Source of the DNA: Spirochaetaceae bacterium
GTDB taxonomy: Bacteria; Spirochaetota; Spirochaetia; SZUA-6; Bin103
NCBI GenBank assembly: GCA_028821475.1
Contig: JAPPGB010000173.1
Span: forward strand, 1 to 64,000
Direction: 5' to 3'
Length of the DNA stretch: 64,000 nt
Every line of letters starts with the position of its first letter. The stretch's first letter is position 1. A model generated the notes under the pieces. It did not search any database. It saw only the letters and a program-made list of their open reading frames with translations, and was not told where the DNA came from. Shown in pieces: positions 31,456-43,691 of this stretch. The position numbers were made by a program, and so were the translations under genes.

Positions 31456-32448
31456 GTGCTGTACTACCTCCTGCGCCGCTCGCTCTACATGCTGCTGCTG
31501 CTGGTGGTGCTGTCGATGGCGGGCTTCGCCATCATCCAGCTCCCGCCCGGCGACTACCTGAACAGCTATATCCAGGCGCTGGCGATGCGCGGCGCCGCCC
31601 CGGACGAGGCGGAGCTGGCCGCGCTCAAGCGGCAGTACGGCCTCGACCTGCCGCTGCACCGCCAATACCTGAAGTGGGCCGGGCGCGCGCTGGCCGGCGA
31701 TTTCGGTCGCTCCATGGACTGGCGCAAGCCGGTATCGGAGCTGATCGCCGACCGCATGCTGCTGACGGTGATCATGAACGCCGCGGCGATGGTGTTCATC
31801 TACGTGGTGGCGATCCCGATCGGGATCTTCGCCGCCACCCACCAGTACTCGGTCGGCGACCATGCGCTGACGGTGGTCAGCCTGACCGGGCTGGCGACGC
31901 CGCAGTTCCTGCTCGCGCTGGTGCTGATGGTGTTCATGGTGCGCAACTTCGGCGCCAGCGTCGGTGGCCTGTTCTCGCCCGAGTACGTCGACGCCGCCTG
32001 GAGCGTGGGCCGGGTGATCGACCTGCTGGCGCACCTGCCGGTGCCGGTGGTCATCATCGGCCTGTCCGGTACCGCGGCGCTGATCCGGGTGATGCGCAGC
32101 GGGGTGCTCGACGAGTTGAAGAAACAGTACGTGGTGACCGCCCGCGCCAAGGGCGCCACCGAGCGCGCGCTGCTGTTCAAGTACCCGGTGCGGGTGGCGA
32201 TCAACCCGATCATCAGCACGGTCGGCTGGATGCTGCCGGCCACCATCTCGGGCGGGACGATCACGGCGGTGGTGCTCAGCCTGCCCACGGTGGGGCCGAT
32301 GCTGCTGCGCGCCCTGCGCAACCAGGACATGTTCCTGGGCGGCACCATCGTCATGCTGCTCGGCTTCCTGACCGTGATCGGGACCTTCGTCTCCGACATG
32401 TTGCTGATGTGGATCGACCCGCGCATCCGCTACGAACGGAGCCGTTGA
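31456..32448 (+). CDS. Peptide/sugar ABC transporter permease (OppB type), cassette 2b
   Basis: 330 residues starting at GTG (VLYYLLRRSLYMLLLLVVLS) with the same helix pattern and IIQLPPGDYLNSYIQ motif as the cassette-2 OppB. The docking loop is YVVTARAKGATERALLFKYP. The end WIDPRIRYERSR is followed 3 bp later by oppC. It is a paralogue of the gene at 28282. Its own binding-protein gene is the truncated fragment upstream, so this permease pair may now depend on another receptor. Confidence 0.9.
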   Translation: MLYYLLRRSLYMLLLLVVLSMAGFAIIQLPPGDYLNSYIQALAMRGAAPDEAELAALKRQYGLDLPLHRQYLKWAGRALAGDFGRSMDWRKPVSELIADRMLLTVIMNAAAMVFIYVVAIPIGIFAATHQYSVGDHALTVVSLTGLATPQFLLALVLMVFMVRNFGASVGGLFSPEYVDAAWSVGRVIDLLAHLPVPVVIIGLSGTAALIRVMRSGVLDELKKQYVVTARAKGATERALLFKYPVRVAINPIISTVGWMLPATISGGTITAVVLSLPTVGPMLLRALRNQDMFLGGTIVMLLGFLTVIGTFVSDMLLMWIDPRIRYERSR

Positions 32449-32451
32449 ACG

Positions 32452-33594
32452 GTGGCGGAGCCGCAGGTGTCGAGTGCTGCCGCGACCGCCGCCGAGCAGG
32501 CGGAAGAGCGCCTCTTTCTCGCTTCGCAGTGGCGCCTCATGTGGCGCCGGCTGGGCCGCCACCGGGTGGCGCTGGCCGGCGGCGTGGTGCTGCTGCTGTT
32601 CTACCTTACCATGTGCCTGGGCGCGGAATTCTGCGCCACCTACACCAGGGACACCCGCTTCAAGGCGTTCTCGTTCGCCCCGCCGGCGCGGATTCGCGTG
32701 GTCGACGCCGACGGGCGCCTGCGGCTGCCGTTCGTGTACGGCCTGGAGTCGGGACGCGATCCGGTTTCGTTCCGCAAGGTGTACACCGAGGACGTGAGCG
32801 TCCGTTACCCGCTGCGCCTGTTCGCGCGCGGCGAGCCGTACCTGCTGTGGGGGCTGTTCCCGGCCGAACGCCACTTCATCGGCGTGGACGAGCCGGGCCT
32901 GCTGCTGCTGTTCGGCAGCGACGAGCTGGGCCGCGACCTGTTTTCGCGCACCCTGTACGGCGGCCGCATCTCGCTGTCGATCGGCCTGGTCGGGGTGGCG
33001 GTGAGCTTCGTGCTCGGCTGCATCCTGGGCGGGCTGTCGGGGTTCTACGGCGGCGGCATCGACAATGCCATTCAGCGCGTCATCGAGTTCCTGCTGTCGA
33101 TACCCACCATCCCGCTGTGGATGGCGCTGGCGGCGGCGGTACCGGTGGACTGGCCGCCGCTACGGGTGTACTTCGGCATCACCATCATCCTGTCGATCAT
33201 CGGCTGGACGGCGCTGGCGCGGGTGGTGCGCGGCAAGCTGATCAGCACTCGCGAGGAGGACTTCGTGGTGGCGGCGCAGATCGCCGGCTCGACCGAGCGC
33301 AAGATCATCGTGCGCCACCTGCTGCCCTCGTTCCTGAGCTACCTGATCGTCGACCTGACGCTGTCGATCCCGCGCATGATCCTGGGCGAGACGGCGCTCA
33401 GCTTCCTGGGCCTGGGGCTGCGCCCGCCGGTGGTGAGTTGGGGGGTGCTGCTGAACCAGGCGCAGAACGTCAAGGCGGTGGCCCTGCACCCGTGGATGCT
33501 GATCCCGGCGGTGTTCGTGATCGTGTCGGTGCTGGCCTTCAACCTGCTCGGCGACGGCCTCCGCGACGCCGCCGACCCCTACGCCTCGCATTGA
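32452..33594 (+). CDS. Peptide/sugar ABC transporter permease (OppC/YejE type), cassette 2b
   Basis: 380 residues from GTG 32452. It has the YejE-like insertion between helix 1 (VALAGGVVLLLFYLTMCLG) and FGSDELGRDLFSRTLYGGR, and the docking loop REEDFVVAAQIAGSTERKII. The gene is repeated at 37410-38576: 32721-33572 is identical to 37679-38530 (852 bp with constant offset), whereas the first 270 bp differ at about 24 positions. Its 3' end carries copy B of the oppC 3'-end repeat and marks the left edge of the low-GC island. Confidence 0.9.
   Translation: MAEPQVSSAAATAAEQAEERLFLASQWRLMWRRLGRHRVALAGGVVLLLFYLTMCLGAEFCATYTRDTRFKAFSFAPPARIRVVDADGRLRLPFVYGLESGRDPVSFRKVYTEDVSVRYPLRLFARGEPYLLWGLFPAERHFIGVDEPGLLLLFGSDELGRDLFSRTLYGGRISLSIGLVGVAVSFVLGCILGGLSGFYGGGIDNAIQRVIEFLLSIPTIPLWMALAAAVPVDWPPLRVYFGITIILSIIGWTALARVVRGKLISTREEDFVVAAQIAGSTERKIIVRHLLPSFLSYLIVDLTLSIPRMILGETALSFLGLGLRPPVVSWGVLLNQAQNVKAVALHPWMLIPAVFVIVSVLAFNLLGDGLRDAADPYASH
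32721..33572 (+). repeat. 852-bp direct repeat, left copy (right copy 37679-38530)
   Basis: The oppC copies align with a constant offset of 4958 bp and no difference seen by eye over 852 bp, while flanking coding sequence is about 91% identical. The R-M cassette lies between the copies. This looks like recent gene conversion or duplication, or an assembly joint at a repeat. Confidence 0.85.
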
Positions 33595-33609
33595 CACGCC
33601 TTGCCTCCC
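33556..33609 (+). repeat. oppC 3'-end repeat, copy B (left boundary of island)
   Basis: The 29-bp core is identical to copies A and D; the bases after the stop (ATTGACACGCCTTGCCTCC) resemble copy A. Base composition drops from GC-rich to about 50% within 40 bp after this element. Confidence 0.7.
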
Positions 33610-33631: not shown

Positions 33632-35446
33632 TCAGCCTTTCTTACAACTGATGAGCCCTGTGGTCTGGTCAATCGAACATCCCGCGTTACGCAGAGCGAC
33701 TAGAACGTCTCCCAAATGAAAGTTGTCCAATATCAATCCTTCTTTTATTGCTGTCCGGACAATCTCGACATATAGAAGGCTTGGGCTCTGTTCGTCCAAG
33801 GTGGGATGATTCTGAATGACTCTATGCACCAGTGCTCCGGTTTCAACGCTGCGGAAAGCTGCCGCGTTCAGTTCCTCTCCAACATTGGGCTTTTGTACAG
33901 TCAAAACGAGATCAAGGATTACGACACCTTCTGATCCTGAATTCAACCCCTTAATGGATCGCTGTCCCTTGTCAAGGATCGCTACGTGAACAGGAGTTGG
34001 CTTAAACCCGGCATCCCGCAGAGCGCGCTGAACGAGTCCCCAGATTCGTCCGCTGCTGTTTCCAAATACTACAGACATGTGACGTCCAGGTCTAAGCACT
34101 CTGTATGCTTCCTTAAATGAATCACGGAGAAGACCCTTGTAGCGCTCCATTGCACCGTTCTTTTTCTTACCTGTCGTGTGTACTACCGCCTCTGAAGTAT
34201 TATCAGTAACACGTCCGAGCCACGCCTCCTGAAACAAATTCATATCACTGTAGAATATGTTGCTTCCAAATGGAGGATCGGTAAATACATAATCGATCGA
34301 CTCTGTTTGGATATGCGAAAGCCGTGCTGCCGATCCTTTATGATAGGTGACATCCTGCAACGAAAAGCCGTTGAGCATGGGCTGTCTTCCAAAGAGAACA
34401 TCATTCGCACGGATCACGGAACTCAGTTTTCTTTTGTATAGATCGAACACGTTCCACTCATAGTAGACCGGCGCAATGTAGTAGGTTTGATTTTGCGCAT
34501 TTAGCGGGCGTTTCCGACTCCACTGGTATCGCTTTGATGCTCGAGGAAGGATGGCAGTAAATGCGAAGCTCAGCTTCTGACGAATCTCACTATCCTTTAT
34601 TCTCTTGATTGCTGTCCAAAGTTCCAGCAGAGCGATGGCATTTCGGGCGGAAAAGAATCTCGCGGTCTCCGTCATACCTGATTTCGCGAGGCCAGACCTG
34701 CCGTACATCTCTCTGTGTGGCTCGATCTTGAGAGACGGAACGTCGCTTAGGCGGGAATCGCGGCACGCGGCCGCAATATTCTCCCAGTCAAGAGACGATA
34801 CATTTTGCTCGACCTGACGCCCATCGGCACCGTGAACGACGACCCGCACCGGCATGTCGTCACTGCGCTGCCACGAACGGCGTGCAAAGTTGGCTCCACA
34901 ACTGGGACAGGTCCGTGGTGGGTTCCCTTGTTCGTCCAATTGCTCAAAGTACACGATCTCCAAGTCACACTTGGGACACCGATAGCAAAATGACCAGACA
35001 GTTCGAACTAGCTGCAGACGGTGTCCGTCACTGTTCCGTTTGGTTGTGTAGAGCGTGCCAATCGCAGTACGGGCCTGCTCAACCACTTGAACCCCTGCTT
35101 CCCGTAGCGTCGCTTCAGGAAGATTCGTGAGGTAACCATGTGCGATGTGCTGTCCGAGGACGGAGATGTCACTAAGCCGAGCTCGACGATTGAGCGTCAG
35201 TGCCGCAAGACCGGTCATGCCGGATCCAGCGAAGAAGTCGGCCACAATCTCGCCTGGTTGGGTGCAAGCTTCAATGAACGGCTGAATAGCCGCGATTGGG
35301 ACCTTGGTTAAATACTGATGACAGTTATATATAGGATCCGTTCGCGGCGCGACTATCGTCGCTGGGAGCATACGCAGCTCTTGCGATGAAGCCTCCAATA
35401 TAACACCCCTCGTTGCAGAATTGTGACGGATAGTCTGTAGATTCAT
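33632..35446 (-). CDS. DNA methyltransferase of an R-M system (alpha motif order, zinc-ribbon insertion)
   Basis: 604 residues. SAM-binding motif I ADFFAGSGMTGLAAL is at 69-83 and catalytic motif IV FTDPPFGSNIFYSD at 388-401, an amino-methyltransferase (N6A or N4C) in the order I-TRD-IV. The 300-residue middle region presumably contains target recognition and includes a zinc-ribbon-like CYRC..C (154-160) and CPSC (180-183). It is divergent from the C and R genes. ATG 35446 lies inside the C-box operator; a TTG at 35398 preceded by GAGGGG is a plausible real start, and Met26 another. It protects host DNA against the neighbouring nuclease. Lower GC than the flanks suggests transfer. Confidence 0.87.
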   Translation of the reverse strand: MNLQTIRHNSATRGVILEASSQELRMLPATIVAPRTDPIYNCHQYLTKVPIAAIQPFIEACTQPGEIVADFFAGSGMTGLAALTLNRRARLSDISVLGQHIAHGYLTNLPEATLREAGVQVVEQARTAIGTLYTTKRNSDGHRLQLVRTVWSFCYRCPKCDLEIVYFEQLDEQGNPPRTCPSCGANFARRSWQRSDDMPVRVVVHGADGRQVEQNVSSLDWENIAAACRDSRLSDVPSLKIEPHREMYGRSGLAKSGMTETARFFSARNAIALLELWTAIKRIKDSEIRQKLSFAFTAILPRASKRYQWSRKRPLNAQNQTYYIAPVYYEWNVFDLYKRKLSSVIRANDVLFGRQPMLNGFSLQDVTYHKGSAARLSHIQTESIDYVFTDPPFGSNIFYSDMNLFQEAWLGRVTDNTSEAVVHTTGKKKNGAMERYKGLLRDSFKEAYRVLRPGRHMSVVFGNSSGRIWGLVQRALRDAGFKPTPVHVAILDKGQRSIKGLNSGSEGVVILDLVLTVQKPNVGEELNAAAFRSVETGALVHRVIQNHPTLDEQSPSLLYVEIVRTAIKEGLILDNFHLGDVLVALRNAGCSIDQTTGLISCKKG

Positions 35447-35450
35447 AGTT
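35425..35450. promoter_or_regulatory. C-box operator of the R-M cassette
   Basis: Two half-palindromic boxes, GACGGATAGTC (35425-35435) and GATTCATAGTT (35440-35450), are separated by TGTA. They closely follow the tandem C-box pattern of controller proteins such as C.Esp1396I (GACTTATAGTC, 4 bp, GATTATAGTC; established knowledge). It lies between the methyltransferase and the controller gene and should set the timing of both promoters. Confidence 0.75.
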
Positions 35451-35501
35451 TACAACCTTCGTACGCTGCCGGCAAGCGCACGGGGTGCCGGAGGTTCAAC
35501 G

Positions 35502-35729
35502 ATTCTCGACCCGAAACTCATACTCGGAACCAACCTCCGGCGTCTCCGGACCTCGACGGGGTTATCTCAGGAGGAACTCGCTTCACGTTCGAGTCTCCAT
35601 AGGACGTACATTAGTTCGGTAGAACGTGGCCAGCGCAACGTCTCAGTCGAGAACATTTTCTTGCTGGCAAAGGCTTTAGGAGCTGAGCCTTCGGACCTTC
35701 TCCGTGTCGACCGAGAGGGTGAGCGCTGA
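35502..35729 (+). CDS. R-M controller (C) protein, XRE-type HTH, apparent ATT start
   Basis: 75 residues. After the start it reads LDPKLILGTNLRRLRTSTG, then LSQEELASRSSLHRTYISSV, ERGQRNVSVENIFLLAKALG, AEPSDLL: a single HTH_XRE domain with the RTYISSVERG...NIFLLAKALG pattern typical of C proteins. No ATG, GTG or TTG occurs in frame upstream. ATT at 35502 is preceded by GGAGG with 7-nt spacing, making it the best start. Its TGA overlaps the ATG of the downstream nuclease gene (TGATG), so C and R are translationally coupled. It should bind the C-box 50 bp upstream, first activating and then limiting nuclease expression. Confidence 0.82.
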   Translation: MLDPKLILGTNLRRLRTSTGLSQEELASRSSLHRTYISSVERGQRNVSVENIFLLAKALGAEPSDLLRVDREGER

Positions 35730-37219
35730 TGCCATTCAAAGCGGGCACGAGCTTCCTTCGATTCCTGAGCATGGGGGCCGCAGGTGTACACCGCACCATG
35801 GAGACTCTGCGGCGGAGCGGTTTCGAACCAATCGAGCTTGAGCGATATTGCGGCTCCAATAAGATCTGGTCGACAAAGATTAAGCGGCTGAGGCTTTCCG
35901 ACCTTCTATGTGTCAGAACCGGCCTGCGTGTGGAAGTACGCGCAAAGACTGATCTCAAAATCCGGATGAGCGATACGCCATCCAACCGAGATCGGGCATG
36001 GGATGCAGGGCTACGCGACGACGATCTTGTCGCGTTCATCTATTGCTCGTTCCAAAACCATCGTCCCATTCCGGCGGATCAGCCCGTATTCTTGAGCGTC
36101 GGTGCACTTCGCAGCTCGATTGCCGCATCCACAGTCGGTCCTCCGAAGTCCGCCTCCGAGGGCGCGGAACGAGATCGCACGTGGCCAGCCACCGTACCCT
36201 CTCGCGACGGGACGGTGCTTGAAGTCACCGATAACAGGATCATCACGCAGATGGACGCAGACCGCACCCGGGCTGCACGCCGTCAGACGTACCTGCTTAG
36301 GGGAAAGACCCCGTACGTCGCTCCCGGTCAAGAATTTAGGGCCCATAGCCAGATAATCTGCGGCGCTCCTCGATCTTTGGCCGATCTGTCTGATTTCTTG
36401 AACCATGATTATGACCCGATGGCGGCCCTTGAATCCGACAGCGTCGTGGATCGCTATGCTGCGGTGAAGGCGCTCGCTCATCGTCCGGAGTTGGGAGCGA
36501 GCCGGATCACGCTGCTTGAGAACATGTTGGACCACGAGTCGGACGATCGAGTTCTCCTGGAAGCCGCTGCCGTCGCAGCATTGATCGGTTCCAGTCATGG
36601 TGAAGATCGGTTGTCTTCGTTCATTTGGGCCGACCACCGTCGACCCGATCTCAGAATGGAAACTGTGATCATCCTTACTGAACTGGGCAACACACCGTTC
36701 GCGCGTGACCAGTTGATGCAAATCGCTGGTTCTGACCGTTTTCAAGGTGATGAGTTGCGACAGGCTGCGGTGTGGGGCCTCGGCAAGATGGGGCTCAAGC
36801 GATATGAGGACCTCCTCGGTTTCATTGATGACAGCGACGATGACGTCGCCTTGCATGCGATAGCCGGGTTTGACCATAACACGCCTCCGAACATTATCAA
36901 CAGCTTGGTGTCGGACCTTGCTACTAGCGGAGAGCGAAGATGTGCGGCAGCGTCTGCCGCTCTTGCCGCCATCGGTTCAGATGCAGCGATCACCGCACTG
37001 GCCTCCGTCGCACGCGTGGCGACCAACGACTGGACAATCGCCACAATCGGGAGTATGCCACCTGAGCGGGTCCGTAGCTTGCTGGTGCGAGACGATCTCC
37101 TGCGTCTCGTTTCTCCGCTTCTTGTCAAGGCCGAGGGCGCAAACTGGCTTGCGTCGGAGGAGAAGCGTAAGGACCTCCGTTTTTTGCAGGCTCAGGACAT
37201 CGCCTCAGATCATCTGTGA
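35729..37219 (+). CDS. Putative restriction endonuclease with C-terminal HEAT repeats
   Basis: 496 residues. The N-terminal 110 residues contain RLSDLLCVRTGLRVEVRAKT, giving D58...E69-x-R71-x-K73, a PD-(D/E)xK-like core, preceded by an Arg/Lys-rich strand. Residues about 235-475 form short helical pairs (RYAAVKALAHRPEL, VLLEAAAVAALIG, ELRQAAVWGLGKMG, DVALHAIAGFDH, RCAAASAALAAIGSDAAI), the pattern of HEAT repeats. Position (C-R operon, divergent methyltransferase) argues strongly for the restriction subunit. No known type II enzyme is recognised. HEAT repeats may give DNA wrapping or dimerisation. Nuclease activity is inference from motif and context. Confidence 0.68.
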   Translation: MPFKAGTSFLRFLSMGAAGVHRTMETLRRSGFEPIELERYCGSNKIWSTKIKRLRLSDLLCVRTGLRVEVRAKTDLKIRMSDTPSNRDRAWDAGLRDDDLVAFIYCSFQNHRPIPADQPVFLSVGALRSSIAASTVGPPKSASEGAERDRTWPATVPSRDGTVLEVTDNRIITQMDADRTRAARRQTYLLRGKTPYVAPGQEFRAHSQIICGAPRSLADLSDFLNHDYDPMAALESDSVVDRYAAVKALAHRPELGASRITLLENMLDHESDDRVLLEAAAVAALIGSSHGEDRLSSFIWADHRRPDLRMETVIILTELGNTPFARDQLMQIAGSDRFQGDELRQAAVWGLGKMGLKRYEDLLGFIDDSDDDVALHAIAGFDHNTPPNIINSLVSDLATSGERRCAAASAALAAIGSDAAITALASVARVATNDWTIATIGSMPPERVRSLLVRDDLLRLVSPLLVKAEGANWLASEEKRKDLRFLQAQDIASDHL

Positions 37220-37409
37220 GATGGCGTGTTACGGTGGGTAGCTATAGTTCGCAGTACCGATCCTCGCCGATCCGCTGGTTCTCGGAGGCAGGGTGGAGCA
37301 GCGTGGTCACCCCAAATCCCAGCACTGACGCTTGGCGTACCATCGTTCGCGCTGAGTGCGAAGCCAAGCGGGCCCGCGCGGACCCGGTACGAACGGAGCG
37401 CCGGAACCG

Positions 37410-38576
37410 GTGGCGGAGCCGGCCGTCTCGATCGCTGCCGCGACCGCCGCCGAGCAGGCGGAGGAGCGGCTCTATCTCGCTTCGCAGTGGCGGCTCATGT
37501 GGCGCCGCCTGGGCCGCCACCGGGTGGCGCTGGCCGGCGGCGTGGTACTGCTGCTGTTCTACCTCACCATGTGCCTGGCGGCGGAGTTCGTCGCCCCCTA
37601 CACCAGGGACACCCGCTTCAAGGCCTTCTCGTTCGCCCCGCCGGTGCGGATTCGCGTGGTAGACGCTGACGGGCGCCCGCGGCTGCCGTTCGTGTACGGC
37701 CTGGAGTCGGGACGCGATCCGGTTTCGTTCCGCAAGGTGTACACCGAGGACGTGAGCGTCCGTTACCCGCTGCGCCTGTTCGCGCGCGGCGAGCCGTACC
37801 TGCTGTGGGGGCTGTTCCCGGCCGAACGCCACTTCATCGGCGTGGACGAGCCGGGCCTGCTGCTGCTGTTCGGCAGCGACGAGCTGGGCCGCGACCTGTT
37901 TTCGCGCACCCTGTACGGCGGCCGCATCTCGCTGTCGATCGGCCTGGTCGGGGTGGCGGTGAGCTTCGTGCTCGGCTGCATCCTGGGCGGGCTGTCGGGG
38001 TTCTACGGCGGCGGCATCGACAATGCCATTCAGCGCGTCATCGAGTTCCTGCTGTCGATACCCACCATCCCGCTGTGGATGGCGCTGGCGGCGGCGGTAC
38101 CGGTGGACTGGCCGCCGCTACGGGTGTACTTCGGCATCACCATCATCCTGTCGATCATCGGCTGGACGGCGCTGGCGCGGGTGGTGCGCGGCAAGCTGAT
38201 CAGCACTCGCGAGGAGGACTTCGTGGTGGCGGCGCAGATCGCCGGCTCGACCGAGCGCAAGATCATCGTGCGCCACCTGCTGCCCTCGTTCCTGAGCTAC
38301 CTGATCGTCGACCTGACGCTGTCGATCCCGCGCATGATCCTGGGCGAGACGGCGCTCAGCTTCCTGGGCCTGGGGCTGCGCCCGCCGGTGGTGAGTTGGG
38401 GGGTGCTGCTGAACCAGGCGCAGAACGTCAAGGCGGTGGCCCTGCACCCGTGGATGCTGATCCCGGCGGTGTTCGTGATCGTGTCGGTGCTGGCCTTCAA
38501 CCTGCTCGGCGACGGCCTCCGCGACGCCGCGGACCCTTCCTTCGCCCTCTCATTGACGCCCCGCCAATCTCTATGA
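37410..38576 (+). CDS. Duplicate OppC/YejE-type permease (partner-less)
   Basis: 388 residues from GTG 37410, nearly the same protein as that at 32452 from residue 90 on. Upstream, 37385-37400 (ending TACGAACGGAGC) is a remnant of the 3' end of an oppB gene, so the copy begins at an oppB/oppC boundary but lacks oppB. The C-terminus differs (AADPSFALSLTPRQSL) because the last 45 bp diverge. No permease partner, binding protein or promoter is adjacent, so it may be silent. Confidence 0.88.
   Translation: MAEPAVSIAAATAAEQAEERLYLASQWRLMWRRLGRHRVALAGGVVLLLFYLTMCLAAEFVAPYTRDTRFKAFSFAPPVRIRVVDADGRPRLPFVYGLESGRDPVSFRKVYTEDVSVRYPLRLFARGEPYLLWGLFPAERHFIGVDEPGLLLLFGSDELGRDLFSRTLYGGRISLSIGLVGVAVSFVLGCILGGLSGFYGGGIDNAIQRVIEFLLSIPTIPLWMALAAAVPVDWPPLRVYFGITIILSIIGWTALARVVRGKLISTREEDFVVAAQIAGSTERKIIVRHLLPSFLSYLIVDLTLSIPRMILGETALSFLGLGLRPPVVSWGVLLNQAQNVKAVALHPWMLIPAVFVIVSVLAFNLLGDGLRDAADPSFALSLTPRQSL
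38514..38567 (+). repeat. oppC 3'-end repeat, copy C (diverged)
   Basis: Shares GGCCTCCGCGACGCCGC with copies A, B and D but departs after 17 bases, then again has CATTGACGCCCCGCC near the stop. The second low-GC block (DUF262 onward) begins directly after it. Confidence 0.55.
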
Positions 38577-38828: not shown

Positions 38829-40580
38829 ATGAATGCCCATGACCGCTATCTCCCGGTGTGGTTTAACCGAATTCGAACACGGCAAATAACTTTACCCAGG
38901 TTTCAACGATTTACCGCTTGGGGACACGCCGAAGTTTCCGGATTGTTGACGACTGTTCTACGCGGGCTCCCTTCTGGGGCAGCGCTGATACTTGAGGTTG
39001 GAGACGAAGAGAAGTTCCCTAGCAGAACGATGGTCGACGCGCCTGATTCGGGAGATCGAGTCACGGAGCAACTTCTTGATGGCCAACAACGCCTGACCGC
39101 GCTCTGGCGTAGTCTGCACGACAAGTACGACGACCGTACCTATCTCATTGGCTTCGAGGACGATCCGGGTAGGGAAGGAACGCGCCTTCCTTACGTGTAC
39201 GGACACGCCCGGTGGTCGAGGAATGGTAGGCGGTATCCTCTCTGGACCGATGATCCTGCAGACTGTTGGCGGCGAGGACTGATCCCGCTCTTACTGCTGC
39301 GTCCGGAGGACATTAGCAACGAGATTGACGCATGGATAGACGCGGCAATACCGAACGGATCTGCAGACACGTTGGCAGACTACAGAGCGATTGGTCATAC
39401 AATCCAAACGCTTCGGACAAGTGTTCGCGAATTCAATCTTCCGTACCTCGCCTTGCCGACGACCACGCCCAAGGAAGTGGCGTTGGATGTGTTTATCAAG
39501 ATGAACACAAGCTCCGTCAAGCTCTCGACCTACGACATCGTCGTGGCGCTTGTGGAAGAGGAGACCGGTAAGTCGCTACATGAGCATGTCGATGAGCTGA
39601 GGGACGCAGTGCCGAGGGCAAGCGACTACGCCGATCTGCCAAGTTTAGTTCTTGATGTTGTAGCACTGCGTCAGGATCGAAGTCCGAGCCAAGCAGGTTA
39701 TCGAGGAATCGACTACAAAAGAATGGTGAACGAGTGGGCCTCGGTGAAGGACGGCATACGGGGAATGGTTACGTTCCTTGAGGACGAGAGTATATTCGAT
39801 GATCAGCGCCTTCCGAGCTACACGGCCATTCCGATTATTGCGGCCCTCTTGGAGCATCTGCCCACTCAACCTGACCAATTGGGTAACGCGTGCCATCTGT
39901 TGAGGCGGTTTCTCTGGAAGGCGTTTCTGACAAGTCGTTACGAGCAGTCCTCAGCAACCAATGCGTTACAGGATTATCGGGGACTTCGCCGGGTGTTAAC
40001 CGAGGGAGCTGACGAGGATTCGGTGCCGATACTCAATGTGGACTCCTTCCCGTGTCCAACCAAGGAGATGGTGCTCCGGGCCGATTGGCCAAAGCGGAAG
40101 TCTATTCTCGGCCGAGGTCTGCTGGCACTGATGTTGAAGGCCGGCGCCGAGGATCTGGCGGACGGGGCACGAGCGACAGTCACGTCCATCACTTCAAAGG
40201 ATCACCCGCGCGAGTACCATCATCTGTTCCCGGTCTCAACGTTGGAGGACGCCAAGGTTCCCGACGATCAAATCTACAGAGCCTTGAATTGTGCCCTAAT
40301 CACTTGGCGGACGAACAGGACAATTGCCAACAAGGACCCCGTGGCCTACCTCAAGGAGCGTGCGGACAGTAACGTCCTTGGAGAGCGCGAGTTGCGTAGT
40401 CGGCTATGTACGCATTTCATACCATATTCGGAGCTCGCAGTTGGATATCACGGCCTATCTGACCAGGATAGGCGCCTTCGGGTTAAGCACGACTACAGCG
40501 CATTTCTTGACGCCCGCGCCGAATTGCTTGTTGAAGCGGCCGAAGGAGCGTGCTCAGGCGAGCGGATTCGAGCACAGTGA
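38829..40580 (+). CDS. GmrSD-like DUF262/HNH protein (type IV restriction candidate)
   Basis: 583 residues. The N-terminal DUF262 (ParB-like NTPase) domain shows LPRFQRFTAW (22-31), VTEQLLDGQQRLTALWRSL with DGQQR at 84-88, and FIKMNTSSVKLSTYDIVVAL. The C-terminal quarter has EYHHLFP (about 461) and LNCALITWRTNRTIANKDPVAYL-type spacing (landmarks ALITWRTNR, PVAYL), an HNH nuclease as in DUF1524. This is the fused GmrS-GmrD architecture known to attack DNA with modified cytosines. The central 200 residues are helical. Low GC relative to host and its place among defence genes support acquisition by transfer. Start ATG 38829 lies 12 bp after a likely -10 box. Confidence 0.85.
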   Translation: MNAHDRYLPVWFNRIRTRQITLPRFQRFTAWGHAEVSGLLTTVLRGLPSGAALILEVGDEEKFPSRTMVDAPDSGDRVTEQLLDGQQRLTALWRSLHDKYDDRTYLIGFEDDPGREGTRLPYVYGHARWSRNGRRYPLWTDDPADCWRRGLIPLLLLRPEDISNEIDAWIDAAIPNGSADTLADYRAIGHTIQTLRTSVREFNLPYLALPTTTPKEVALDVFIKMNTSSVKLSTYDIVVALVEEETGKSLHEHVDELRDAVPRASDYADLPSLVLDVVALRQDRSPSQAGYRGIDYKRMVNEWASVKDGIRGMVTFLEDESIFDDQRLPSYTAIPIIAALLEHLPTQPDQLGNACHLLRRFLWKAFLTSRYEQSSATNALQDYRGLRRVLTEGADEDSVPILNVDSFPCPTKEMVLRADWPKRKSILGRGLLALMLKAGAEDLADGARATVTSITSKDHPREYHHLFPVSTLEDAKVPDDQIYRALNCALITWRTNRTIANKDPVAYLKERADSNVLGERELRSRLCTHFIPYSELAVGYHGLSDQDRRLRVKHDYSAFLDARAELLVEAAEGACSGERIRAQ

Positions 40581-40932: not shown

Positions 40933-41880
40933 TCAGGTTTGAATCCGTCTGGTGAAGTTCGCGGAGGTCGGCATTGGCACCATCGTGGTCGTCAAGGCTG
41001 TGATCGGATAGAGCAGGATCAGGATGTTGTATGTCGTGTCGATAGCTTCGGCGAGGCATTCGTGTCGTTGCCCGTTGCAATCAGTGACGGCGAGAGGAAC
41101 GGCCTTGGTCATCCTGCGGTGAATGGGTATGACTGGCCACAGAAGATGGTCTGGCGTAACTGCCTCGACAGTGGGGCGTCCGAACTGGGCGACAAAAGCG
41201 GGCGATGGCTCTATACGACGCACGGGCGCCCGGAATCCCGAACCTTGATCGTTCTCTATCGGCTCCAGCGCAAAGACAACGCAAGCTCTGGGGTTCGTAC
41301 GGGCAAATTCACGCGCAGCAGCGTAGACCGATGACCCAAACGTTCGCGCAAGCGTGATCGGCGTCTTGATGTCCAACGGGTAGTCGGCGGCGTGCTCAGC
41401 GAAGGTAGGGCCCTTGAAGAGGAGGAAGCGCGCAAAGTTGTTGGCTTCCCGTTCGAACTGATCCGCCACCTCCGGGGACAGGGTCTTGTTACAGTCCTGA
41501 AAGAAGCGAAACAGTTTGCGATGCGTGGGGATTTCGTGGTGCCCGGCCTCGTGTAGCTTGAGGAACGTCTGCTTCGCGTCGACGACAGTGTTGTCGATGT
41601 GGATGACCGCTTCCTTGGCGTCGTAGAGCCCGAAGACCTTCCCTATCGCGGACTTGATGCGAGCGCCTGCGACAGCAGCCTTCCCTCCGAGGTACGAGAC
41701 GATGGTGGCGGGATCAAACGCACCGGTCGGCGTAACGCGAACATTGGCTGCAGAAAGGATGTCATCGACCGGGACGGGGAAGCGGTCCCAAGCATCCGCG
41801 CGGTCGAGGAGCCCTTGGGCTTGTTCCTCGACCGCGCGAAGATCATCGCCGTCGAGCGTGCTATCGTCAGGTCTTGTCAT
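40933..41880 (-). CDS. ImmA/IrrE family metallopeptidase
   Basis: 315 residues. HEAGH at 110-114 is the gluzincin motif, within TFLKLHEAGHHEIPTH, and the downstream helix FEREANNFARFLLF provides the third ligand. ATG 41880 follows AGGAG at 8 nt and overlaps the end of the HTH gene by 14 bp, so both are one operon. ImmA/IrrE proteins cleave or sequester their partner XRE repressor, usually to derepress mobile-element or stress genes (established for ICEBs1 ImmA/ImmR and Deinococcus IrrE/DdrO). The C-terminal 120 residues are not recognised. It may control this island. Confidence 0.87.
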   Translation of the reverse strand: MTRPDDSTLDGDDLRAVEEQAQGLLDRADAWDRFPVPVDDILSAANVRVTPTGAFDPATIVSYLGGKAAVAGARIKSAIGKVFGLYDAKEAVIHIDNTVVDAKQTFLKLHEAGHHEIPTHRKLFRFFQDCNKTLSPEVADQFEREANNFARFLLFKGPTFAEHAADYPLDIKTPITLARTFGSSVYAAAREFARTNPRACVVFALEPIENDQGSGFRAPVRRIEPSPAFVAQFGRPTVEAVTPDHLLWPVIPIHRRMTKAVPLAVTDCNGQRHECLAEAIDTTYNILILLYPITALTTTMVPMPTSANFTRRIQT

Positions 41881-42232
41881 GTGCTTTTCTCCTGCTTCGG
41901 ATGAACTGGAGGTACTCCAGCAACTCGGATTCCTCATCTTCGGTTAAGTGGTACTCGGCGAAAGTGGCCACCCGACCATGGCGCCGGTTATCGGAATCCC
42001 GGGTCGAGGACATGAGGTAGCCGGCCTTGTCCATCAAGTTCTCAAAGCTGATTGCGTAGATCTCAGCGAGGGAGTGAAGGATGTTGGGTGAAGGTTTCCG
42101 AATCCTGTCATTCTCGATTTGGCTGAGATAGGCGTTAGAGACTTGCCTGTTCGTTGCCTCTTCGACTTCGCGCAGAGTCATCTTCCGATCCGTGCGAATC
42201 GAGGCAAGATATTGTCCGAGCGTAGGTTTCAC
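41867..42232 (-). CDS. XRE-family transcriptional regulator paired with ImmA/IrrE
   Basis: 121 residues from GTG 42232, which follows AGAGGAGC. The HTH_XRE domain runs from TLGQYLASIRTDRKMTLREV to SNAYLSQIENDRIRKPSPN and ILHSLAEIYAISFENLMDKA (about residues 4-70). The tail ends ELLEYLQFIRSRRKAHDKT, the short helical 'ELLEYL.FI' segment common to repressors cleaved by ImmA-type peptidases. Likely a repressor of its own promoter and perhaps of other island genes. Confidence 0.87.
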   Translation of the reverse strand: MKPTLGQYLASIRTDRKMTLREVEEATNRQVSNAYLSQIENDRIRKPSPNILHSLAEIYAISFENLMDKAGYLMSSTRDSDNRRHGRVATFAEYHLTEDEESELLEYLQFIRSRRKAHDKT

Positions 42233-42645: not shown

Positions 42646-43584
42646 TCACTCCATATGTTCGGCGTGGGGGACACTATCGGACGAAACGCCTCCTCCATCC
42701 TTTTCAGTTTCTCCTCCTTTATTTTCGGCGTGATCATTATCGTGTGTTCCATGGTCATCTCCTTGATCCTCGTCAGAAGTATGAGATCTCATTTCTGGCG
42801 GCGCAATCACCTTCACATGGGGCGGATCCGTCGAAGCGTCCGTGTGGCCCTCCGAGACGGCCTGTTTGTATGCCTCCAACTCATCTTTCGATGGATCTCT
42901 GACACGGTCGAACAGCCCCTTGGCCTCCGTTACATTTATCACGAAGGCGTGGTCGGGGTATCCCCTCACCAGTGTGTTTAGCGATCCGGGGGTGAGATTG
43001 TTCGTTATTTGCAACAGCCTTTGGCCATAAGCCTCGGCTACGGCTACACTACGACTAACGGCCGCCACTTTGTAGGGATCGATTTGGGCAGCGATGGGAC
43101 TGAAAATACCCGACACCAAGTCGGAGGCGATCCTACATGCTGTGGCAGTGGAGATGCTCGTGTACGACCGCCTTATTAGAAGCAGCATGTACTTCTCGAA
43201 AGCCTTGAACGCATCGGTGTATAACACCTCCAAAGAGTTGGTCGTCTCCAGGCCAGAAGACCTTTGCGCGATTTCGTCTGGCTTCCTAATCTGAACATCC
43301 AGCGGCCCTAGTTCTCCAGTAAGGGTCATGGCAACGGACGTAGCCCCGATTGCCACCAACGTCCCTGCACTCTTGCAGCGACCAAATACCACCACATCGA
43401 CGTCATCAAAAAAAGCGTGAAGGGTCGTGATTAGGCGGAACGCCTGATGAATGTCGCCTCCCACGGTCGTCAGCAATAGAGATACGTCACCTGGATCTCC
43501 TTCTCTTTCGCTCCAAGCAGACACGATGCCTGTTATGACTTCATTCACCCCTTCTTCGTTGATCTCGCCGCTGTAGACGATCAT
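42646..43584 (-). CDS. SDH-type (PF01972) ClpP-fold serine protease
   Basis: 312 residues from ATG 43584; a TTG at 43596 would add four. The ClpP/crotonase fold is shown by LLLTTVGGDIHQAFRLITTL (37-56), the nucleophile region FGRCKSAGTLVAIGA with Ser72, and ELGPLDVQI (91-99), the signature of the 'serine dehydrogenase proteinase' family. No signal peptide or membrane helix is seen. The last 60 residues are charged and low-complexity (rich in D, H, E, K). It lies 1 kb upstream of, and divergent from, the ubiquitin-like operon. A role in cleaving conjugates or targets is conceivable but unproven. Confidence 0.8.
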   Translation of the reverse strand: MIVYSGEINEEGVNEVITGIVSAWSEREGDPGDVSLLLTTVGGDIHQAFRLITTLHAFFDDVDVVVFGRCKSAGTLVAIGATSVAMTLTGELGPLDVQIRKPDEIAQRSSGLETTNSLEVLYTDAFKAFEKYMLLLIRRSYTSISTATACRIASDLVSGIFSPIAAQIDPYKVAAVSRSVAVAEAYGQRLLQITNNLTPGSLNTLVRGYPDHAFVINVTEAKGLFDRVRDPSKDELEAYKQAVSEGHTDASTDPPHVKVIAPPEMRSHTSDEDQGDDHGTHDNDHAENKGGETEKDGGGVSSDSVPHAEHME

Positions 43585-43691
43585 CGTTCTATCCAAGGTG
43601 TCTGTCTCCCACGCTACTGCCTTTCCTCAGTGCGCCTTCGCTGCACCTCTGCCTATCCACACGATCTCCCCTGCAAGTTCCGACGAGGGGG

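Follow-up and report, generated by a model that had tools for sequence, protein, structure and literature searches.

The locus raises the question of whether a HEAT-repeat protein lying beside a DNA methyltransferase gene can be a restriction enzyme. The window (the whole 64,000-nucleotide stretch of a Spirochaetaceae genome analysed here) encodes a putative restriction endonuclease of 496 aa at 35729-37219 on the forward strand, with an ATG start that the alignment shows to be common to all 26 relatives; the gene is single-copy in the host genome (5.73 Mb). We propose, at a probability of about 0.72, that this protein serves as the endonuclease in a self-contained Type II restriction-modification system of two genes, directed at CAGCTG, the PvuII site. 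The endonuclease most likely represents a new Type II family isospecific with PvuII.

Family models recognise only one end of the protein. Pfam detected a HEAT_2 match (E 1.2e-10, aa 302-378) and saw no portion other than the HEAT part, PADLOC gave a weak HEAT-ARM match and NCBIfam zero matches, and the N-terminal half (nuclease domain and barrel, see below) has no family in Pfam, PADLOC, NCBIfam or PDB sequence models. An AlphaFold2 model built on a 27-sequence alignment (pLDDT 88.3, pTM 0.85) consists of three domains, and residues 1-224 modelled alone gave a pLDDT of 87.9 and a pTM of 0.85. In the viral structure library nothing matched the model with E <0.001, and other restriction endonucleases were absent from the VIA and Foldseek match lists, which we do not count against such kinship. 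A preliminary description of this DNA had called the architecture unfamiliar, and the blank family searches agree with it, as does a literature search for HEAT-repeat restriction enzymes or for HEAT with PvuII, in which nothing relevant was found. The Pfam search and structure prediction that it proposed yielded HEAT_2 only and a PD-(D/E)XK-like fold, respectively. The model supports a nuclease domain, an RNA-polymerase-like barrel and a HEAT solenoid in succession, a build previously unrecognised for a restriction enzyme.

The PD-(D/E)XK-like nuclease domain (aa 1-110, 35729-36058, forward strand) is the best-conserved portion of the protein. D58 (35900-35902), E69 (35933-35935) and K73 (35945-35947) are invariant in 27/27 sequences, and this invariance argues that PD-x10-E-x-R/K-x-K is, in the family alignment, a genuine conserved motif for which chance is excluded. 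P57 is almost invariant in the family and is a serine in the window copy. The usual residue at the xK position of such motifs is a lysine; here it is occupied by R71 (35939-35941), an arginine in 26 of the 27 sequences and a lysine in one, with K73 two residues further, making this a variant motif. Upstream, a basic segment, SNKIWxTKxKRLR (aa 43-55), is invariant or nearly so across the family. D58, E69 and K73 fall at or on beta strands of the model, and comparison of this predicted structure with the PDB returned two PD-(D/E)XK nucleases: the archaeal Holliday junction resolvase Hjc (2wcw; Z 8.8, rmsd 2.9, with 110 of its 121 residues matched) and the homing endonuclease I-Ssp6803I (2ost; Z 8.5, 128 of 148 residues). 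The fold matches of this domain are moderate (Z 8.4-8.8) and span most of each target. At the sequence level, hhalign pairs D58, E69 and R71 with D33, E46 and K48 of Hjc (query sequence identical to 1gef) at a low probability of 9.5%, the alignment offers no residue equivalent to the glutamate in the first helix of Hjc, and a sequence-profile search against known PD-(D/E)XK members gave no family match. The likeness to Hjc and I-Ssp6803I is thus one of predicted fold, whereas significant sequence similarity is absent and the genomic role differs. A PD-(D/E)XK core fold for the N-terminal domain is nevertheless supported by the model, and the presence of a conserved D, E and K within such a fold points to catalysis. 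The short PD-(D/E)xK-like N-terminus (D58...E69-x-R-x-K73) of the preliminary description therefore stands on conservation, AlphaFold2 fold and PDB matches together.

Two further domains follow. A middle barrel (aa 153-216, 36185-36376, forward strand), which the preliminary description had not noticed, resembles a module of RNA polymerase beta: residues 153-213 superpose on 6yys chain C (residues 631-696) with a Z of 9.4, an rmsd of 1.0 over 55 aa and 33% identity. Unlike in the polymerase, the module is isolated and stands in a DNA-cutting context, the other polymerase parts being absent. The remainder is an acidic HEAT solenoid (aa ~221-490, 36389-37198, forward strand), where the HEAT array announced earlier is confirmed by the HEAT_2 match and by the model, where a helical solenoid spans aa ~221-487; from aa 221 on, its fold matches alphaReps and YibA, from which it differs by its fusion to a nuclease domain. 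A non-nuclease, phycobilisome lyase-like HEAT family, the outcome that would have spoken against a nuclease, is not what was found; HEAT_PBS scores 14.8 bits, below the Pfam cut-off of 20.9. The HEAT part carries a net charge of -17 (family mean -12) and the N-terminal part one of +7 (family +5), which places DNA binding in the N-terminal half; judging from these charges, the main DNA-binding surface is unlikely to be on the HEAT part. The preliminary description had suggested a novel recognition or allosteric mode for the HEAT repeats, which would be speculative here.

The partner gene (33632-35446, reverse strand) encodes a DNA methyltransferase of 604 aa, identified by Pfam (N6_N4_Mtase, E 4e-17), by PADLOC (MTase_II, PDLC03312, 9e-93; PglXI, 7e-87) and by conserved motifs. 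Motif I, FAGSGMTG (aa 72-79), precedes motif IV, DPPF (aa 390-393), an arrangement kept across 19 orthologs, in which four zinc-ribbon-like cysteines (157, 160, 180 and 183) are invariant. Because of the DPPF motif, the enzyme is read as probably an N6-adenine methyltransferase. Relatives on plasmids, which share ~30-37% identity with it, comprise BREX-3 methyltransferases as well as paired methyltransferases from other loci. It is a distant relative of the PglXI/BREX-3 enzymes, but is shorter, has no BREX genes nearby and belongs to a two-gene system. The two genes diverge from an intergenic region of ~0.3 kb (35447-35728), similar in size in nearly all relatives, and an Rfam scan of 30-44 kb gave no match. 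The cassette is enclosed by a 1.18-kb direct repeat, each copy an OppC-like permease gene on the forward strand (left, 32418-33595; right, 37373-38557), a feature also missing from the preliminary description. The copies are 96.6% identical, ~780 bp being perfectly so, which suggests an insertion that duplicated its target gene, recombination, or an assembly effect.

The nuclease family is rare. Searches with a single sequence were negative in 392 genomes of the phylum and in plasmids, phages and viral contigs. A degenerate seed (the N-terminus of the window protein and two made-up variants, used solely to pick search patterns) retrieved three relatives in viral contigs, and an alignment of real sequences then retrieved 23 more in 84,980 species genomes, giving a total of 26; all relatives used are real sequences, verified by tblastn. 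The hosts are Proteobacteria, Acidobacteria, Nitrospirales, Eggerthellaceae, a cyanobacterium, a planctomycete and Firmicutes, the majority of the carrier genomes having been assembled from metagenomes. In the phylum of one carrier (398 genomes), only the centre genome itself matched.

In 27/27 loci a methyltransferase gene adjoins the HEAT nuclease, and the identity of this methyltransferase separates two clades. Clade 1 comprises 20 loci (the window, L011, L014-L030 and L036), in all of which the nuclease gene and an ortholog of the window methyltransferase point away from each other (orthologs 54-66% identical; the L016 copy is short), with an intergenic gap of mostly 200-430 bp. The remaining neighbours are unrelated between loci, and the hosts come from unrelated phyla. 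Pairwise distances of nuclease and methyltransferase are correlated (r = 0.92, Mantel p = 1e-4, 19 loci); in clade 1, as far as sequences tell, the two genes form an exclusive, co-evolving pair. Clade 2 comprises seven loci (L012, L013, L031, which is a near-identical copy of L013, and L032-L035), and all seven have an M.PvuII-like partner (for L035, a match to 1boo at E 2e-126). R.PvuII (PF09225) is also present in five of these seven loci; it is absent from the genomes of L034 and L035, which have M.PvuII-like, leaving the HEAT protein as the sole adjacent nuclease candidate there. In clade 1, L028 (Sphingomonas gilva) has both partner methyltransferase types and R.PvuII, and L036 has both methyltransferase types; beyond L028 and the five clade-2 loci, R.PvuII was found in none of the other carrier genomes searched. 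Full PvuII-type M and R pairs lie directly beside the HEAT nuclease at L013 (1697-3220), L028 (3924-5872) and L031-L033, so that the genes of two unrelated endonucleases, apparently directed at a single target, are neighbours; at L031 there is a stop inside the R.PvuII frame. Membership of the window protein in the PvuII endonuclease family itself was considered and rejected: it has no PF09225 match, nor does its own genome (G000), and it is ~3x longer than R.PvuII, with extra barrel and HEAT domains. The window methyltransferase likewise lies outside the M.PvuII family. The resemblance to the PvuII system would rather lie in the predicted CAGCTG target and, observably, in the shared loci and in the capacity of relatives to use an M.PvuII-like partner.

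The M.PvuII-like partners of clade 2 led to CAGCTG being predicted as the target ahead of any counting. Avoidance of the target site was reported in 47.9% of genomes with Type II systems having separate R and M genes, versus 3.9% of controls, and was not reported for Types I, III or IIG (PMC4687349). Using a maximum-order Markov expectation on sampled genome stretches and 64 six-base palindromes, we found that carriers without M.PvuII-like or R.PvuII genes, when pooled, contain 53 CAGCTG observed versus 331 expected, the lowest of the 64; CAGCTG has a carrier/non-carrier contrast of 0.28, against at least 0.71 for the other 57 testable palindromes. In whole-genome counts, CAGCTG falls below 50 per Mb in 10/16 carriers without PvuII-type genes versus 5/139 non-carriers (Fisher 1.2e-8), and its density differs between carriers and non-carriers (Mann-Whitney, 7e-4 and 1.3e-5), the controls being roughly matched by kinship only; the six alphaproteobacterial carriers alone gave p = 0.06 against controls. 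Carriers have between 3.5 and 512 sites per Mb (median 37), and the non-carrier medians are 254 per Mb for relatives of the window genome and 155 for those of carrier G402, the non-carrier label having been checked with the family profile in all 60 of the former and 34/79 of the latter. Avoidance of CAGCTG is thus specific to carriers. The window's own genome, with 210 CAGCTG in 5.73 Mb, shows the same depletion (12 observed versus 163 expected in 404 kb; Karlin-type ratio 0.14, all other palindromes at least 0.64), but this is confounded by a second M.PvuII-like gene (49% identity) on G000:C71 (L105:10473-12523), and the target argument therefore rests on the carriers without PvuII genes (G394 being outside the search for M.PvuII-like genes). 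This second gene is overlapped or adjoined by a 327-aa ORF that has no Pfam family and reads like another restriction endonuclease.

The best-surviving alternative, which we nonetheless consider unlikely, is that the protein is a Type II nuclease with another target, its association with PvuII reflecting defence-gene clustering and the avoidance having other causes. CAGCTG is indeed somewhat low in non-carriers as well (pooled, 120 observed versus 208 expected), three of these (G814, G864 and G842) are strongly depleted, and carriers G394, G399, G405, G406 and G408 are undepleted. Against this, the target was named ahead of the counts, among 58 palindromes only CAGCTG shows such a carrier contrast, and M.PvuII-like genes are rare (6/26 genomes searched) yet lie next to the nuclease in 9/27 loci and in clade 2 take the place of the usual partner. 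A blind prediction that the depleted non-carriers G814 and G864 carry the nuclease failed in a family-profile search, and both also have no M.PvuII-like gene. Mismatches between depletion and carriage are usually explained by lost or recent systems, and close relatives often retain the trace of a lost one (18.4% within genus; PMC4687349); by analogy, such a trace may fit G813/G814. In G814, a relative genome (L106, G814:C1:936001-955000), the genes of two long PglX-like methyltransferases (32%) lie side by side, and an ATPase-like protein and a C5 methyltransferase are encoded as well. The alphaproteobacterial G864 (L107-L110) has only 19 CAGCTG in 2.7 Mb.

Less probable again is an accessory role in CAGCTG systems, as a nickase, a regulator or a DNA-repair factor tolerating the methyltransferase, with the true endonuclease encoded elsewhere. 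This could be argued from the five clade-2 loci and L028, where a complete PvuII pair, needing no helper, is already in place; however, 18 clade-1 loci as well as L034 and L035 have no other conserved adjacent nuclease, R.PvuII is absent from those genomes although most of them avoid the site, and the conserved D, E and K argue for a catalytic protein. A reading as a HEAT scaffold with no nuclease function, lying by chance beside a methyltransferase and with a purely structural motif, agrees with family models recognising the HEAT part only, but is highly improbable and was dismissed given that the N-terminal domain, with its invariant strand residues, is the most conserved and the methyltransferase pairing is exclusive and co-evolving.

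The favoured reading is a Type II endonuclease directed at CAGCTG. The Type II slot claimed in the preliminary description is supported by the exclusive, co-evolving methyltransferase cassette and by target-site avoidance, and the predicted target by the M.PvuII-like partners and the same avoidance. The scheme that we infer for cleavage and its target, for the methylated base and for what the barrel and HEAT repeats do is as follows: the divergently transcribed methyltransferase would mark CAGCTG sites of the host, and the endonuclease would cut unmarked sites in a metal-dependent manner via its N-terminal PD-(D/E)XK-type domain, using D58, E69 and either R/K71 or K73. The SNKIWxTKxKRLR segment, which has low confidence in the fragment-only model, is the likely DNA-reading loop. 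The barrel and the acidic HEAT solenoid would most likely keep the enzyme in shape, form a dimer or gate cleavage. It is tempting to go further, and we do so tentatively since this version is rather doubtful: the barrel and solenoid may control the nuclease and, in some hosts, R.PvuII may co-restrict CAGCTG under a shared methyltransferase.

If the proposal is correct, it adds a restriction endonuclease family invisible to current family models, together with a concrete target predicted from DNA sequence alone. The loci would also show two unrelated endonucleases, apparently of the same specificity, under one methyltransferase, and provide a test case for the role of HEAT repeats and a polymerase-like barrel in a DNA-cutting enzyme.

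The cassette has other neighbours of interest. A DUF262/GmrSD_N-domain protein beside it (38829-40580; E 1.9e-17; PADLOC HEC-05) is likely a further defence gene. A capP/capH-like pair (40933-42232) consists of an IrrE-type peptidase and an XRE regulator, a regulator type that accompanies several defence systems, and a ClpP-like SDH-family serine protease (42646-43596) lies close to the same island.
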